From Rhizodiscina lignyota (lineage: Eukaryota > Ascomycota > Dothideomycetes > Aulographales > Rhizodiscinaceae): a DNA stretch of 64,000 nucleotides. Within the stretch, counting starts at the first letter, position 1. Each line of letters begins with the position of its first letter. The notes beneath the pieces were generated by a model. The model made no database searches. It was not told the origin of the DNA and was given only the letters and a program-made list of their open reading frames with translations. The position numbers and the translations under genes were made by a program. The stretch spans positions 844,226-908,225 of the forward strand of contig ML978132.1 in the NCBI GenBank assembly GCA_010015805.1, written 5' to 3'. Below are positions 56,400 through 64,000 of the stretch, one piece after another.

Positions 56400-56850
56400 A
56401 CTAAGCTATCCAGCCGCTAGGACTCTCTTACGAGCGCAGACTAAGACTAGAGGCTTACTATATTAGGGCTGTATCTAGACTAAACTAAGCGCGTTATTAT
56501 CTGTACAGAGTGTAAGTACGCGCTTAAGCCGTCCGCTAAGGCCGTGTCTAAGCACCTTTAGGAGAAGTACTAAGTGCCTACCGAAGCCCGCCGCGGCCTT
56601 AATACCTTTATTAACTTACTAAACCTACTACATCCTAATAAGCTTAGTCTCCGGCCTAACGGCTCTATACTATACCCGTACCTTACCGTCCAATCTAGCG
56701 CGGCTTGTAAGTACTACTAGTACTAGTCTACTAGCCTTAACCTCGTACGGCGCTACCTAGCGAAAGGGTACGGTCGAAAGGGCAGCCGTAAGACCTAGCT
56801 TCGTAATAACCTCTATACTAGTCTAAGCCTAACTCGTACCATACGACCGG
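56400..56850 (+). pseudogene. RIP-degraded DUF3505-like (C2H2-type) protein fragment
   Basis: Reading plus strand in the frame whose codons start at positions divisible by 3, the sequence from about 56460 gives ILGLYLD, then from 56499 VIICTECKYALKPSAKAVSKHL, stop, EKY, stop, VPTEARRGLNTFINLLNLLHPNKLSLRPNGSILYPYLTVQS, CKYY, STSLNLVRRYLAKGYGRKGSRKT. This matches the pattern C-x2-C...KHL..KH.VP...L.RPDGS..HPHL.VQ...C.HC...S.S...RRHLAKxHxRKxS of fungal DUF3505/ORSAL-type proteins, with His and Cys converted to Tyr and Gln/Trp to stop, as CpA/TpG mutation predicts. No functional product is possible. It shares strand and phase with the helicase remnant downstream. Confidence 0.65.
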
Positions 56851-56999
56851 TTTAAGTCGAACTGATTTAAGCCTGCTAACAAATTTAGCGCCGGTAGGAT
56901 AAGGAGGGGGTCGGACTGATTTAGGGTTTAGAGTCGAACCCGATTTGCGAGAAAGTAGCAAAGTAGTGCCTAGGGGCGGGTTTTAAGCGTATAGAAATA

Positions 57000-57200
57000 T
57001 AGTCCTAGCCGCGCCCGACCCGGCCATGCAGTCAGAACTATTAGGGTCACGGTGCGTTGTTGCGTTGTGGCCGTGGTCCGCGGTGTGCAGGAGTTTTCGT
57101 GTTCGCGGTCACGTGATCCGAGCAGGATTGGCAGTTCAGCGCAGTACGCAGCGAGCAAAACAAGTCGCGGTCGGACGCAGCAGGCAGGTAGGATAGTAGG
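57000..57200. other. RIP-spared island upstream of the helicase frame, with a TCACGTGA palindrome
   Basis: About 200 bp that keep many CA and TG dinucleotides in otherwise depleted surroundings. It contains TCACGTGA (57109-57116), an E-box-like palindrome, about 410 bp upstream of the likely original helicase start. No protein homology seen in any frame; it could be part of the former promoter or a fragment of unmutated DNA. Confidence 0.45.
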
Positions 57201-58279
57201 TAGTATATTACAGTTAAAGGCGGGTAAGCTGTAGTTAAATATAGTAGGTTAATAGGGTAGTACGCGCCTGTTTCCACAGTACGAAAGTAGTTTCGTAGTC
57301 ACGTATTTTAAGTAGGGCGGGCGGGCGGGTATGCGCGCGTAGCGCGGCTAGGGGCTAAAGCGTCGAAGCTACGAAATAAGAAAAGGGGGAGAAGATTAGG
57401 GATTTAAGTAGATAATAAGACGTATTATTGAGTTCAGAAGGCCATTTAATAGTTGCCCTAGTTATTAGTTAAGGAAGAACCTATAGTAGAACTAAGGAGG
57501 GAGGGAGATTAAAAGATTAGGGGAGAGATAGCAGGTTTCAGCGATTATTTCGAGTATTTACCGTAGTACAAGGCGATTATTTACAGGAGGTGCAGGTACG
57601 CTATTATTAGGAGTAGTATAGGTTTACATTTAAGCTAGAAGCATAAGAGCGAGTTGACGGTAGACGCGCGTAGGGCGATTGTAGTAGAGGCGAGTAGTAT
57701 CGCGGTAGAAGACATCGTAGTTACACGTGAGGAGGTCTAGTATCTAGAGCCTACGTTAGCGCTATTAGCTAGTTTGTAGTTATAGGACGATAGTTATTAG
57801 TACGACGAGTACAAACACATACGCTGCACGCGGGAGGATATATAGAAGTATTATAGGTAAGAGTACAAGTAGGCGAATAGGCGCGGCCGCGGTAGGGCGA
57901 TAAGGTTAGCTATTATAAAGGCGCGAGAGCACGAGATATAGACGGCAGGCGTGTATTACTAGCAGTTTTTCAGGATAGGAGGGTAGTAGCGGTTGTTTAA
58001 GGTAACGGCGAGGCTAGGGGGTAAGGGTAAGGGTAAGGGAGATAAAGGAGAAAGTACAGTTAATAGGGATAAGCAGATACAGCGCGTTATAAGGCAGTAG
58101 ATAGAGAGGGTTTTTATGTTAGCAGATAAGCGGTTAAAGCAAGAGGCTAAGGAGGAGAGGGCGATAGTCTAGGCTAACACGAATAGATACGTACTATAGA
58201 CGTAGTTAAGGAGGGCGGGATAGGCGAGGCATTTAGAGGGGTTTAACCGTAGGTAGTTAGTTAAGATAGCGGAGATACT

Positions 58280-58405
58280 AGTAGATAGAGATAAGAGCGA
58301 CAGCGATAGTAATAGTAGTAGTAGTAACGATAGCAGCGATAATAGTAGTAGCGAAAGCAGTAACAGCGAAAGTAATAGCGAAAGTAATAGCGAAAGTAGT
58401 AGTAT
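58280..58405 (+). repeat. Ser/Asn/Asp-coding trinucleotide-rich tract
   Basis: In the helicase frame this reads as runs of Ser with Asn, Asp and Glu (AGT/AGC, AAT/AAC, GAT, GAA). Repeats of AGTAATAGCGAA-type units are visible at its 3' end. It is a low-complexity linker of the former helicase. Confidence 0.75.
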
Positions 58406-59981
58406 AATAGATGTAAGAAGAGAGTAGGAGTTAGTTAGGGTGTATAATATAGTACAAATAGTTATTTAGGAGGCGTAAAAGGCAGCATAGCTAGAAGTTA
58501 TAGGTTTTACAGCCGCATATTATATAAATAGGAGAGAGACAGGCGAGATATCGAATAAGAAGCTATTAAACACGAGGTAGTAGGGCAAGACGATCGAGAG
58601 GTACGCCGAGGTTTAGTATAAGGTAGTTTGTTATATTTAGAGGACGTAGGGTTTACTAAAGGCGATAAAAGGGGGGAGGGGGAGGAGGAGTAGTAGGAGT
58701 AGTAGTAGTAGCGACAGTAATAGCGGGTTAGGGGACGCGTCGACAGGGCTAGTAGAAGAGGATTTAGAGGAAGATTTAGAAAGGGATTCGGGGTTAGATA
58801 AGGAGATGCGTATAGAGATCGAAAGGGCTAGGTAAGAGGGAAGAAGGTAAGAAGGGAGGGATAGGAGAGAAGAGGCAGAAAATAGTATTAAGTAGAAAAG
58901 ACCGCCGTATAGATTGACTAGCAGACAGATTAGAGTATTAATACAGGTTAGACAGGCTATTAGGCGTGAAGAGGAGTAGGGTAAGAAGGTATAGGGGCGG
59001 GGGTAAGAGTAGAAGTAAGAGTAGGAGTAAGGAGAGGAAGAGAGGGGAGGAGATAAAGAAGATAGTAAGGTAGAAGCGGCGATATTAGAGTTTTTGATCG
59101 CATTGTTAGACCACGACGTGCAGGACGACGCATATACAAACGGCATCGTTAGTAGATTGGCGGTTTTAGGGTTAGATAAGGATTGCGCGTAGAAAGGGCC
59201 GTCTAGGGCGATACAAGCATTGTTAGCAGTCGTTACAGTCGCTAGGATATTAGTTTTATACTACGTAAAGTTAATAAGGGAAGTAGTAATTAAAGAGATA
59301 AGGGAAGAGCAAGGTTTTAGCTAGGTAGAGGCATTAAAGAAGGCGCCGACCCATTTCTAGTTAGCATAGGAGATAGTATACAGGTTTATAACGTTAACCG
59401 CATTTAGTAGCAAGCTAACGCCGATAAATTAGGTTTTAATGTTAAGGATGTACGGGTTAAAGGTATATTATAGCATGGCGGCAGACGGAGTAGTAGATTA
59501 GGTTGGCGATAGGTTGTTATACGGCTACATTAGTTTTAGCATACCGGATTTACAGGCAATAATCTATAGGTTAGTATACGCGTTATAGTTAAGGTTTAAG
59601 AGGAGGTTGTTATTATTACATGTTAACGACGAGGGCTAGCCTAATAGCGCGGATACGACAACGCGGTTACTACTAGTAAAGATAGACTAGATAGTAGATA
59701 ATATAGTAGAGATAAGGGTTAGGTAGAGTTTCGTAGACGACAGGCGGAATAGAGAGGCGTTTAGCGGCGTTAATAGTAGTAAGTAGATAGTAGACAGAGT
59801 TATAGGAGAGTAGTAGTTACGCGAGGAGTTTGTCGATACTAAGGCTACGTACGATATAATCCGTAGAAGCTAGTAGTAGTAGTAGTAGCGGCGGTAGCAG
59901 AATAGTAGCGATCCGGTTATGTAGAAGAAAGATAGGATCTAGTAGTATAAGAAGGATTTAGACGCGTATAGGCAGGATTTA

Positions 59982-60372
59982 TTGGTATTAATATATATAA
60001 TAGGAGGACAGCTAGCTAGGGGCATAGAGATCGTTATAGTATGGTATAAGAACAGCGCGGACGGCGCGGGCAGAGGCATTTTCGTGGAGGACGGGATGGT
60101 GGTGTACGTGGTGCGGTACCACAAGGGCGTGGGGTTCAGCGGCAGGGAGAAGGTGATCCACCGGTATTTGCCACACGAGGTCGGGTCGTTGTTGTTGTAC
60201 GATTTGTGGTTGGTGAGGCCGTTTTGGGACAGGTTGGAGAGTGTTTCCACCGTCGCATCGACGGCGGCGGCGGCAGCGGCGGCGGCAGAGGTCGAAGGAG
60301 ATGGCAGCGGCAATATCGCCGGCAACAACAGTAGAAATATCGCTAGTAGTAGTAGAAGCGGCCGCAGCCCGT
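59982..60372 (+). other. RIP-spared coding island 1 of the helicase remnant
   Basis: An uninterrupted open stretch in the helicase phase; CA and TG are normal from about 60045. It encodes GRGIFVEDGMVVYVVRYHKG, then IHRYLPHEVGSLLLYDLWLV and an Ala/Gly/Ser linker. Upstream (to ~60040) and downstream (from ~60375) the same frame is full of TAG. Codons keep CAC, CAG and TGG that are converted elsewhere. Confidence 0.7.
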
Positions 60373-60479
60373 TTTTGTAGGAGCCAAAGCTAGAACAGGC
60401 GTAGCAGGGCCTAAAGATAAGAGGGAGAAGACAGTAAGGAGGAGGAGGAGGAGGAGAAGAAAGGGATAATAGAGAGGAC

Positions 60480-60740
60480 AGACAGCAGCCGCCGTCGATG
60501 AAGACGGTGTATTGGGACACGGACAGGGTCAGAAAGGCGATCCAGAAGGCCAGCATGACATATTTAGGGGTGAGGATAAACATTATGTGTTGGAGGCACA
60601 GCAGCAAGGCGATTTACAGGCGGTATATCAATGACAAGGCCATCATCCAAGCCATCACGAGAGGAGATGAGGACGGTGGGCAGCAGGGAGAGGACGAGGG
60701 GGGGGAGGGGCAGTATGTCAACGGGTTTAATTAGAGAGAG
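60480..60740 (+). other. RIP-spared coding island 2 of the helicase remnant
   Basis: Open in the helicase phase with normal CA/TG. It encodes KTVYWDTDRVRKAIQKASM, MCWRHSSKAIYRRYINDKAI and a Gly/Glu-rich acidic linker, the segment before the helicase core. TAG stops reappear directly after 60730. Confidence 0.7.
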
Positions 60741-60989
60741 GTCGGATTCCATTTACAGATAGGCTATAACGCGTAGATAGGGGAGGGCATATATAGTAAG
60801 GGCGTCGATAAGTCGCTATTCTATACTATAGCGCAGTAGGTCATGTTTCGGAAGGTTAGTAAGGAGTAGCATAAGTTTTTAATGTTCGAATCGGCGTTAC
60901 AGGAGCCGGCTAAGCAGGGTTTAGTAGCGGCCTATAGGAGGCAGTAGGCGGAGGAAGAAGAGTTTAGGAGGTAGGTAGCAATACGGAAG

Positions 60990-61247
60990 ACAGACATAAG
61001 GAAGCAGTTGCGGAAGTTGGTCGGGCCAGACGCAGAGTTCAGAGGGTTGCAGGAGCCGGCGATCAAGGCGATTATGCAGCAGAGAAGCCCGGTGGTGGCG
61101 ATCATGGCGACGGGAGAGGGCAAGAGTTTGTTATTCATGTTGCCGGCGTTTTGTTCCACGGGCATGACGGTGGTGGTGGTGCCGTTGATCATGTTGAGGC
61201 AGGACATGGCGGCCAGATGCAAGGCGGCGGGGATAGAGTACGTAGAG
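60990..61247 (+). other. RIP-spared coding island 3, carrying the helicase Walker A motif
   Basis: Open in phase, encoding LVGPDAEFRGLQEPAIKAIM (Q motif-like), Walker A ATGEGKSLLF and VVVVPLIMLRQDMAARCKAAG (motif Ia). Mutated sequence begins at the TAG around 61247, with motif II (61377-61388) already damaged to DECY. Confidence 0.75.
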
Positions 61248-61909
61248 TAGAGTAGCGTAAGGCCGTACGAGTAGGCGTTAATCGTATTTATAACGCTAGA
61301 GTTAGCGGTAGGCGTAGCGTTTAGCCAGTTTTTAAACAGGCAGAGGGTAATAGGCCGGTTAGATCGAGTAGTAATTGACGAGTGCTATATAGTATTAGAT
61401 TTGAGCGAGGGGGGCGGGTAGAGGAGTCGGGTTTTACGGTTAAGGGAGTTAATTAGGGTAGAGACATAGATAGTATTTTTAACAGTAACATTACCGCTAG
61501 CGGACGAGCTAGAGTTTAAAAGATTAATAGGGTTCGGCGGTAGTAATAGTAAGAAGAGAGGCGGCGGTAGCGGTAGTAGTAGTAGAGAGAGCAATAGTAG
61601 TAGTAATAGAGAGAGTAGTAGTAGTAGCAAAAGAGAGAGTATAGAGAGAGAGGGAGAGGGAGAGGGAGAGGAAGAGGGAGAGTATTAGTTTAGGGCGCCG
61701 ACTATAAAGAAGAATATTAAATACCAGGTAATTTTTCATAGCTAGGCGGAAGAGGAGGAGACGGTAGTTAGATTAGTAGAGGAGAAGAGGGCGTAGTATG
61801 CGATACTAGGCTAGATTATAGTGTATTACGATATAGTCAAGAAGACGGAGAGGTTAGTAAAGGTTTTAGGGTATAAGTATTTCTATAGAGTAGTAGGTAG
61901 TAAAGAAGA

Positions 61910-62130
61910 AAAGGCGAAGTTGTTACAGGTGTTGAAAGAAGGCACGGAGCAGGTTTTCACGGCGACAAACGCGTTGGGATTGGGGGTTGATGCGCCGACG
62001 ATTAGGGTGGTCATACACGTGGGCAGGGTGAGGAAGTTGAGGAGTTTCGTGCAGGAGAGCGGCAGGGCGGGCAGGGACAGGAGGGCGTGCGAGTCGATCG
62101 TGTTACAGGCGGTTAAGGTCGATTAGAGGA
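61910..62130 (+). other. RIP-spared coding island 4, carrying helicase motifs V and VI
   Basis: Open in phase, encoding KLLQVLKEGTEQVFTATNAL, GLGVDAPTIRVVIHVGRV and FVQESGRAGRDRRACESIVL. The frame before it (61690-61900) is recognisable but mutated; after 62127 TAG stops resume. Confidence 0.75.
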
Positions 62131-62348
62131 CGGGTAAGGTCATATAGGAGGATAGGAGCTAGTAGGGGATAGAGGATAATATGATAGAGTTTATAGATTC
62201 GTAGGGTAATAGCTAGTATAGGAGGGTAGTATTAGACAGGGTAATAGACGGTAGGAGGGACAGAGAGGGGTGTAAAGAGGAAGAGGAGGCGTATAACGTG
62301 TATTACGGGAGGCGATTACAAGAGGGAGAAGGGTAGTTATAAGGGGAG

Positions 62349-62466
62349 GGATTGTAGTAGCAGACGGGATTGTAGTAGGTAGAGGGATTATAGTAGTAGG
62401 AGGGATTATAGCAGGCGGAGGGATTGTAGCAGGCGGAATTGTAGTAGGTAGAATTGTAGCAGGTGT
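62349..62466 (+). repeat. 18/15-bp minisatellite coding (GLQQxE)n in the helicase remnant
   Basis: Five 18-bp units followed by two 15-bp units, in the helicase phase: GGA-TTG-CAG-CAG-x-GAG-like, with most CAG now TAG. The original protein had a Gln-rich repeat here, between the helicase core and the C-terminal cysteine-rich domain. Confidence 0.8.
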
Positions 62467-62754
62467 ACATATATAGCTAGAGTAGGCAGAGTAAGGGGAG
62501 AGGGAAAAAGAGGGTTATTAATAAGAATAGCGATAATAGTAGGGATAGAAGTAGGGACGAGAGGGAAAGGCAAGAGTTAAGGATAGAGTTTAATAGGGAG
62601 ATAATAAGGCGTAGGGCTAGAGTAAAGGGCGAGAGGGTATTATAATAAGAACAGATAATTATAGAGTAGAGGTTAGAGGATATATTAGAGGAGTAGTACG
62701 CGGGTTGTGCATATTGTTATGTAATAGGCGATAGAGTATATATAGGGCACGAGT

Positions 62755-63029
62755 TCGAGGAGTGTTTAAGGGTGGGAAGCGAGGTCGACGCAGAGATGTT
62801 CAAAGAGGTGGTCAGGGAGGTTAAGGAGGGCGTCGAGTGGCAGAGGTTTGCGGGTTGTTGGGGTTGCGGGGTGCCACAGGGGGTTTGCAGGACGTGGGAG
62901 TTGAACGAGGCGAACGGCAGGTGGAAGTGGCGAAGGCAAGGGGTTTTCCAGTGCCAGCATAGGAAAGGAGTGTTGATCGAGGCGGTGGTGGCGTTGTGGT
63001 ACGTGAAAGGGGAGGAGTTTAAGGGGTAG
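62755..63029 (+). other. RIP-spared coding island 5, C-terminal cysteine-rich domain of the helicase
   Basis: Open in phase, encoding GSEVDAEMFKEVVREVKEGV and a Cys-rich segment with CWGCGVPQGVC and CQHRKG. The pattern C-x2-C-x-x-P-Q-x3-C-x-x-W is typical of the C-terminus of fungal telomere-linked helicases. A sixth island (63090-63224) continues to the frame end with DDLGGFKRSLVKWLGFKEMV. Confidence 0.72.
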
Positions 63030-63356
63030 GTAAGAGGGGAGAGGGGGTAGAAGCAGGAGTTTTTTAATAATAAAGGTAGGAGGGGTAAGGATGTGGATGT
63101 TGAGGTTGGCAATGACGACGATTTGGGGGGGTTCAAGAGGTCGTTGGTCAAGTGGTTGGGGTTCAAGGAGATGGTGGGCGGGTTCGAGAGCAACAACGCG
63201 TGCAAGGTGTTGATTCGATTCGGGTAGCGGCGTTTGTTTATTTATTAATTGTCAGATTGAGCGGGCGAATTTAAGGCGATTCTAGGGCAGTTTTCGAGCA
63301 TGAATTCAAGACAGCGCTAGTTGCGTAGGGAGTGTCGGCGGTAGGAGAGAAGGGGG

Positions 63357-63480
63357 CGATCCGATAGGTATTTGCCGCGCGAGGTGGGCGAGTTGTTATA
63401 GTACGATTTGAGGTTGGTAAGGCCGTTTATAGGGTTTAAGTTAGAGGAGGTTTTTACGGCGATCGCGTCAACGGATTTAG
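63357..63480 (+). pseudogene. Duplicated fragment of the helicase middle domain (copy A)
   Basis: After the helicase stop, this stretch encodes, with RIP stops, IR-YLPREVGELL-YDLRLVRPFIGFKLEEVFTAIASTD. It corresponds to IHRYLPHEVGSLLLYDLWLV... of the main helicase at ~60150-60260 but differs at many positions, so it derives from another family member, not a recent local copy. Confidence 0.7.
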
Positions 63481-63570
63481 ATAGTAGCAGTAGGATTAGT
63501 AGTAGTAGGGACAGTAGTAGCAGGAGAGGTAATTAGTATAACCGTAACCGCCCCCGTTTTTAAATAGTTA

Positions 63571-63620
63571 GGACGATTTGAGGTTAGTAAGGCCGTTTAT
63601 AGGGTTTAAGTTAGAGGGGC
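63571..63620 (+). repeat. Second, shorter duplicated helicase fragment (copy B)
   Basis: About 47 bp are almost identical (one A/G difference) to 63403-63447 in copy A, offset 170 bp. It again encodes DLRLVRPFIGFKLE. This indicates a local duplication after copy A was placed. Confidence 0.72.
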
Positions 63621-63734
63621 AAGTTTAGAGATGTTTTAGGGTAGTTTTCGAGGCGATTTCAGAGTGGTTTTCAAGTGGGAATTCTAGTAGGGTTAGGGAG
63701 TAGTTTTTCAGGCGAAATCAAAGAGTAAAGGCGA

Positions 63735-63885
63735 GGGTTAGGGACAGTAGTTAACAGTAAGGGTTAGGGATAGTAGTTAACGATAAGGGTTAGGGACAGT
63801 AGTTGACGGTAAGGGTTAGAGACAGTAGTTAACGATAAGGGTTAGGGACAGTAGTTAATAGTAAGGGTTAGGGACAGTAGGTAGT
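63735..63885 (+). repeat. 26-bp tandem repeat with embedded GGGTTAGGG (telomere-like), six copies
   Basis: Units start at 63735, 63761, 63787, 63813, 63839 and 63865 (last partial). Consensus: GGGTTAGGGACAGTAGTTAA then C/T, A/G, R-T/A, A-A. Each contains GGGTTAGGG (one unit has GGGTTAGAG), the fungal TTAGGG telomere motif on the G-rich strand running to the right end. It is subtelomeric or interstitial, not a true telomere. Confidence 0.88.
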
Positions 63886-63977
63886 ATAGGGGAGTTTAAA
63901 GAGGGAGACGAGAGTAAGAAAGTAGTAGTAGTAGAGGCCCGAACGGAGCAAGGCAGGGTGCGCGGCGTCCCCGCGCG

Positions 63978-64000
63978 GTTTGTTTGTTTGTTTGTTTGTT
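63978..64000 (+). repeat. (GTTT)n simple repeat at the window edge
   Basis: Five or more GTTT units run to the last base, so the true length is unknown. It follows a GC-rich CGCGGCGTCCCCGCGCGG segment. Confidence 0.9.

Follow-up and report, generated by a model that had tools for sequence, protein, structure and literature searches.

The helicase element and its copies

The window analysed here comprises 64,000 nucleotides of Rhizodiscina lignyota (contig ML978132.1, positions 844,226 to 908,225, forward strand) and represents the last 64 kb of a contig that we call C12, within a genome assembly of 33.4 Mb and 29 contigs. Its end is occupied by a telomere-linked helicase element with a broken RecQ-like gene, in which short, open and unmutated islands alternate with tracts that have been heavily changed by repeat-induced point mutation (RIP). 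In window coordinates, the element and its gene are:

56833..64000, + strand: telomere-linked helicase element, C12 copy; reaches the contig end, with the gene directed at the telomere
57528..63227, + strand: RecQ-like helicase frame interrupted by stops, many of them TAG and some TAA; start taken from the match to P0122

When seven pieces of the frame were compared with Pfam, one matched DEAD (9.6e-10), one Helicase_C (3.9e-11) and five had no match. The relatives found by reading through the stops are 1093-1817 amino acids long, with 38-55% identity among the nine best, and one of them is named RecQ helicase. A RecQ-like gene with DEAD and Helicase_C domains that is present in several copies at chromosome ends resembles the fungal telomere-linked helicases (TLHs), but the copies found here are mosaics and none of them is intact. 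Every listed match to the element in the assembly contains stops, and the stop-free matches in the genome are distant helicases with at most 35% identity (26 of 31 candidates scored in both cases). For Fusarium oxysporum, a published study describes TLHs at most chromosome ends, together with signs of RIP in adjacent FoTeR elements (PMC12857005).

We aligned 11 full or truncated copies from seven contig ends, one each from C12, C28, C20 and C2, two from C10, two in tandem from C21 and three from C5. Homology starts at about 56829 in the C12 copy, an edge that is common to other copies, while a run free of CTC and CTT (CTY) begins at 56833 and C12 ends at window position 64000. The C2 copy passes straight into TTAGGG repeats, from which it follows that the gene points towards the telomere. 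At the C10 end, about 5 kb of other DNA separates the helicase copies from the TTAGGG telomere. Terminal TTAGGG arrays were found on C2 and C10 only, and the assembly may thus lack most chromosome ends.

The left end of the element is precise (it starts with CTAACT; window 56829-56900) and is joined to differing sequence at different sites, as seen at the left edges of the C28, C20, C2, C5, C21 and C10 copies. In the tandem arrays of C21, C5 and C10, the upstream copy is cut at its 3' side and joined directly to the next left end, with no telomere repeats in between. The element thus behaves like a discrete, end-directed element. Near the contig end, a 26-bp unit that includes TTAGGG is repeated about 5.7 times (63734-63880).

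Islands and mutated tracts in the C12 copy

The original prediction had proposed a sharp mosaic within this gene, made up of five or six open islands with abrupt switches to mutated DNA. In the assembly, this mosaic is real. Between 59980 and 63227, six islands of 135-322 bp (322, 240, 246, 209, 214 and 135 bp) alternate with mutated tracts. In the islands both strands are unmutated and the frame is open up to the natural final stop, although two edges were trimmed at in-frame stops (60378 and 62124, where the runs of informative sites had overshot), which makes the stop-free count there partly one of construction. Together with two further runs of low mutation, the features are as follows (the simple and leave-one-out tests are run tests, the latter described below):

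57004..57199, + strand: low-mutation stretch on the 5' side; 2/60 sites mutated against 17 expected
59073..59148, + strand: small extra unmutated run; 29 sites, log10P -4.8 (leave-one-out)
60056..60377, + strand: island 1; run 60056-60432, log10P -12.5 (leave-one-out), right edge cut at the TAG at 60378
60378..60471, + strand: short mutated tract; 3 stops in 31 codons, few informative changes
60472..60711, + strand: island 2; log10P -4.7 (leave-one-out), -18.2 (simple)
60712..60983, + strand: mutated tract; 6 stops in 90 codons
60984..61229, + strand: island 3, holding helicase motif I; log10P -6.4 (leave-one-out)
61230..61914, + strand: mutated tract with motifs II and III; 8 stops in 228 codons
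61915..62123, + strand: island 4, holding motif VI and common to C21a up to 62049; log10P -8.2 (leave-one-out)
62124..62809, + strand: mutated tract; 25 stops in 228 codons
62810..63023, + strand: island 5; 52 sites, log10P -12.9 (simple test only)
63024..63092, + strand: short mutated tract; 2 stops in 23 codons
63093..63229, + strand: island 6, the weakest; 29 sites, log10P -6.0 (simple test only), within the longest-run lengths of the null

The mosaic is nearly bimodal. The islands (1366 bp) contain 195 CA+TG and 32 TA dinucleotides, i.e. 143 and 23 per kb in comparison to 146 and 35 in the rest of the window, whereas the tracts (1882 bp) contain 72 and 270 (Fisher P 8e-56, which is descriptive only as the edges were chosen from the data). 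In a run test that is independent of the other copies, intact (CA/TG) and mutated (TA) dinucleotides formed 167 runs, whereas none of 5000 shuffles gave fewer than 244, and the longest intact run spans 22 dinucleotides against a shuffle maximum of 19. In-frame stops amount to 1 in 453 codons in the islands, the natural final stop, and to 44 in 624 codons in the tracts; the islands retain Trp and Gln codons that read as stops elsewhere, and the TAG at 60378 lies at a conserved Trp. The switches are indeed abrupt: mutated and unmutated sites flanking an edge lie 1-26 bp apart, often only 1-3 bp, and runs of C sites and of G sites give the same island edges. Since the comparison cannot reveal a site that is mutated in every copy, the edges are accurate to a few tens of bases at best. 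At the positions of the C12 islands the other copies are mutated, except where islands overlap. The tracts had been called almost saturated; they are heavily mutated, but incompletely so, as 34% of the polymorphic RIP sites outside the islands have changed in C12. Introns were ruled out as a cause of the alternation, because islands and tracts occupy one frame.

It had also been suggested that the islands coincide with the conserved helicase blocks, and selection might have retained them in a C12 copy that is still functional. Motifs I and VI lie within islands, and the share of poorly aligned codons is 0.11 in islands against 0.23 in tracts. At near-invariant columns the window matches the majority in 100/106 cases in islands and 71/92 in tracts, with 19 of the 21 tract misses being changes that RIP can produce. 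However, conservation among 13 homologues is alike in island and tract columns (0.625 and 0.602), a difference matched or exceeded by 373 of 1081 circular shifts in a test that ran with untrimmed edges and thus with 4 stops inside islands. Motifs II and III lie within a mutated tract, 44 in-frame stops separate the islands, and in other copies the islands sit elsewhere. We therefore reject the coincidence with conserved blocks, and regard selection as a highly improbable cause of the mosaic.

RIP as the mutating process

The copies have been mutated by RIP on both strands. With the island DNA taken as the unmutated state and the other copies scored, the fractions of mutated sites on the two strands were 897/1166 and 968/1124 for CpA (77% and 86%), 625/1630 and 687/1629 for CpG (38% and 42%), 1/32 and 101/2076 for CpT (3% and 5%), and 2/412 and 69/2622 for CpC (0.5% and 3%). 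These are C:G to T:A transitions with a preference for CpA, and they affect a repeated target, while positions 1-56000 of the window as a whole have a normal RIP substrate index of 1.35. The pattern is comparable to RIP in other ascomycetes, where repeated DNA undergoes C to T changes on both strands with CpA affected most strongly; it differs in that CpG is also strongly affected and that mutated copies may contain mutation-free blocks. In general, RIP is confined to the sexual cycle and depends on a RID-type enzyme.

Other changes are rare. Among the six long copies, one transversion column was found in 6413, and as other differences are nearly absent, these copies must have been alike shortly before RIP. 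Across all 11 copies, non-RIP differences occur in 37 columns, many of them contributed by copy C5a at 57601-57900. One earlier proposal held that the islands were absent in, or diverged from, the repeat partner and for this reason remained unpaired. This does not hold, since the long copies are collinear and almost gapless over the islands that they reach.

Islands across the copy family

The mosaic had been described for a single gene. It is present in the C12 helicase, but is not confined to it. An island by itself adds informative sites to the comparison. We therefore applied a leave-one-out run test, restricted to sites at which the remaining copies differ from one another, with a cut-off of log10P < -4.5. 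It returned 15 unmutated blocks in 7 of the 11 copies (five in C12, three in C5a, two each in C21a and C28, one each in C21b, C20 and C5c), mostly at differing places, and no block that passed in C2, C10a, C10b and C5b. The strongest are C21a 59441-59672 (log10P -21.0), C20 59656-59853 (-15.2), C28 59152-59366 (-13.3) and C12 60056-60432 (-12.5). The five C12 runs correspond to islands 1-4 and the run at 59073-59148; islands 5 and 6 stay below the threshold in a region into which only three other copies extend.

Certain edges are found in more than one copy. The C28 and C21b blocks start at 59152, beside C12 and C5a runs that end at 59148-59154, and C12 and C21a blocks both begin at 61915. By eye, the islands of different copies seem to tile the element in a striking way, but their overlap of 284 bp is not significantly below the 458 bp expected (SD 146, P 0.12), and we discarded tiling as a feature.

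Origin of the islands

In our view the mosaic is best explained if, after RIP, short tracts were copied in from an unmutated copy by gene conversion or template switching, a reading which we hold with slightly better than even confidence. Conversion from a live telomeric copy had been among the explanations offered at the outset, and it still fits best, although no live donor was found in the assembly. The copies would descend from a single recent telomere-linked helicase element, and were mutated on both strands by RIP. Later, blocks of roughly 100-320 bp may have been overwritten from an unmutated copy, through ectopic gene conversion, through template switching from one chromosome end to another, or when a mismatched heteroduplex was repaired in patches. 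The outcome would be blocks restored on both strands with sharp edges, six in C12 and one to three in other copies. We infer that RIP came first and copying later; the donor, an intact copy, could have resided in a mating partner or at a chromosome end that is missing from the assembly.

Traces of exchange between copies are consistent with this. Agreement beyond the site-specific rates was seen in 44 of 55 copy pairs, and the remaining 11 all include C5a or C5c. C2 and C10b have a mutated haplotype in common (57602-57744; 64 sites, 35 mutated, log10P -13.6). A comparison with the other subtelomeric copies had been proposed as a check on conversion: C12 and C21a show zero differences over 61901-62000 while their flanks differ, so a shared block was indeed found, but an intact donor that matches the islands was not. 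Short tracts and sharp edges are typical of ectopic gene conversion. In Zymoseptoria tritici, the median lengths of conversion tracts are 539 and 432 bp (PMC10294615), more than in the islands; in the present case, conversion would also reverse RIP in patches, and no donor was found. Other helicases of the genome (on C1, upstream on C21, and a RecQ on C5) were considered as donors and rejected as too distant, with identities of no more than 45% (short search) and about 35% (long search).

The alternative that RIP itself was patchy, sparing blocks that remained unpaired during repeat pairing and mutating paired ones, seems unlikely to us. It would account for the fact that islands are fewer in copies with denser mutation and that certain edges recur between copies, and the near-identity of the copies before RIP makes a single burst possible. 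Yet the transition at the edges has no ramp: the first five sites outside an island are mutated at 0.55 (the first by definition), and those that follow at 0.33-0.48. Strand-specific patterns left by a single RIP event in Neurospora were reportedly described by Watters et al. in 1999. Single-strand patches were not in excess outside the islands (SD of z 0.70-1.01); the tracts therefore resemble the product of repeated rounds of mutation, in which spared blocks would lose their crisp edges. Even mutation of both strands in the tracts and the missing ramp would thus require edges that stayed fixed through several cycles. Flanks that were mutated repeatedly, without mutation ever entering the block and with constant edges, seem less likely than one late replacement; this argument weakens if all mutation took place in one cycle with a stable pairing pattern. 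Moreover, a Neurospora study describes RIP as spanning the extent of shared homology (PMC4858203). If blocks were nevertheless spared, the mosaic would be a natural readout of repeat pairing during RIP.

An artefact of assembly or polishing is, in our estimation, similarly improbable. Here, reads of an intact unassembled copy, or of another individual in the sample, would have been folded patchwise into a mutated consensus. The islands are comparable to reads in size, ends are missing from the assembly (judged by the terminal arrays on only two contigs), the most heavily mutated copies have no islands, and the overlap between copies lies below expectation, if not significantly so. Against this, the switches require no shared word, with mutated and unmutated sites often being almost adjacent, the C12 edges do not track 500-bp consensus windows, and mutated copies, too, share haplotypes with each other. 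Of 18 cases, the flanks of the island copy are the least mutated of all copies in four and the most mutated in one, a weak argument as flanks need not reflect the island.

Several observations count against copying after RIP. The searches, in which only the best candidates were scored, found no unmutated donor in the assembly. Islands are most abundant in C12, which carries the fewest mutations, and are missing from the most mutated copies (C10a, C10b and C5b), a distribution that fits conversion that prefers similar partners, but equally incomplete RIP or misplaced reads. Two island edges fall on exactly the same position in different copies (null mean 0.30, P 0.036), and in four edge pairs the distance is at most 5 bp (P 0.031); counted within one informative site, such coincidences are ordinary (P 0.23). 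Mutation density in blocks of 30 sites outside the islands is mildly uneven, with 4 of 11 copies above the 99% limit of the null, in C12 mainly due to the low-mutation sites at 57004-57192. The sites that flank the C20 island make up the most mutated block of that copy (22/30 sites, 10.9 expected; 59546-59883 in the C20 copy), which copying alone would not predict.

Taken together, we read this real-looking, family-wide mosaic best as patchwise restoration of RIP-mutated telomeric genes. If blocks were copied in after RIP, chromosome ends would partly undo, piece by piece, an otherwise irreversible genome defence, which bears on the persistence of telomere-linked helicases in RIP-active fungi. 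No RIP mosaic of this kind was described in the titles and abstract openings listed by literature searches, a weak negative with most subscription papers outside their scope.

Loss of CpT on one strand

Besides RIP, the element shows a strong deficit of CpT on one strand. Unmutated island DNA of five copies (2563 bp) contains just 3 CpT (observed/expected 0.04) while ApG is normal (1.15), and none of 62 Leu codons is a CTN codon. The + strand has neither CTC nor CTT over 7167 bp (56833-64000), comprising the 5' flank, the gene and the 3' flank; the next longest run of this kind in the window measures 241 bp on the same strand and 356 bp on the other. Long, nearly CTY-free runs also start at the left edge of the other copies, with a few CTY at the junctions. 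As RIP barely affects CpT here, it is not the cause of this loss. No CpT loss was seen in the 5 kb beside the telomere at the C10 end or in other helicase regions of the genome (L033, L034 and L035).

Relatives were found at four loci on viral contigs and on other genome contigs, of which 80 of 567 were retained; we examined the four viral-contig loci and, from the 80, the contig L050. The four viral-contig loci have no comparable one-strand loss. L050 (1-9784) is a fungal-type helicase contig with 30% identity that is filed under a bacterial (Erythrobacter) bin. Along this contig CpT drops from 20-27 per 500 bp to 0, followed by CpC, and in the last 284 bp there is no C on the affected strand, while the other strand retains CpA, CpC and CpT; a helicase frame of 1590 codons remains open. 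These numbers have to be read with caution. A stretch of 100 N lies near the helicase start, and the first step might reflect a join between scaffolds. The gain in T is smaller than the drop in C, so that changes from C to T do not make up the whole loss. The end may be degenerate telomeric DNA, with the telomere side deduced from TTAGGG words and not from an array.

We tentatively suggest a second, older mutational process, to which we give somewhat less than an even chance, in which the strand with its 3' end on the telomere side lost essentially all CpT, then CpC and finally all C, more so near the end. Its likely cause would be deamination of cytosine while the DNA is single-stranded at resected or uncapped ends. 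The evidence, one contig and one element family, is thin. If the loss were general, single-stranded exposure of fungal chromosome ends would become measurable from sequence alone.

A GH35 protein of the window

Apart from the element, the window encodes a GH35 protein. Its closest matches overall are metagenome proteins (81% identity), and its best named relatives come from Bathelium mastoideum (76%, over 87% of the GH35 protein), Viridothelium virens (75%) and Bogoriella megaspora (72%), genera which we take to be lichen-forming Trypetheliales or close to them.

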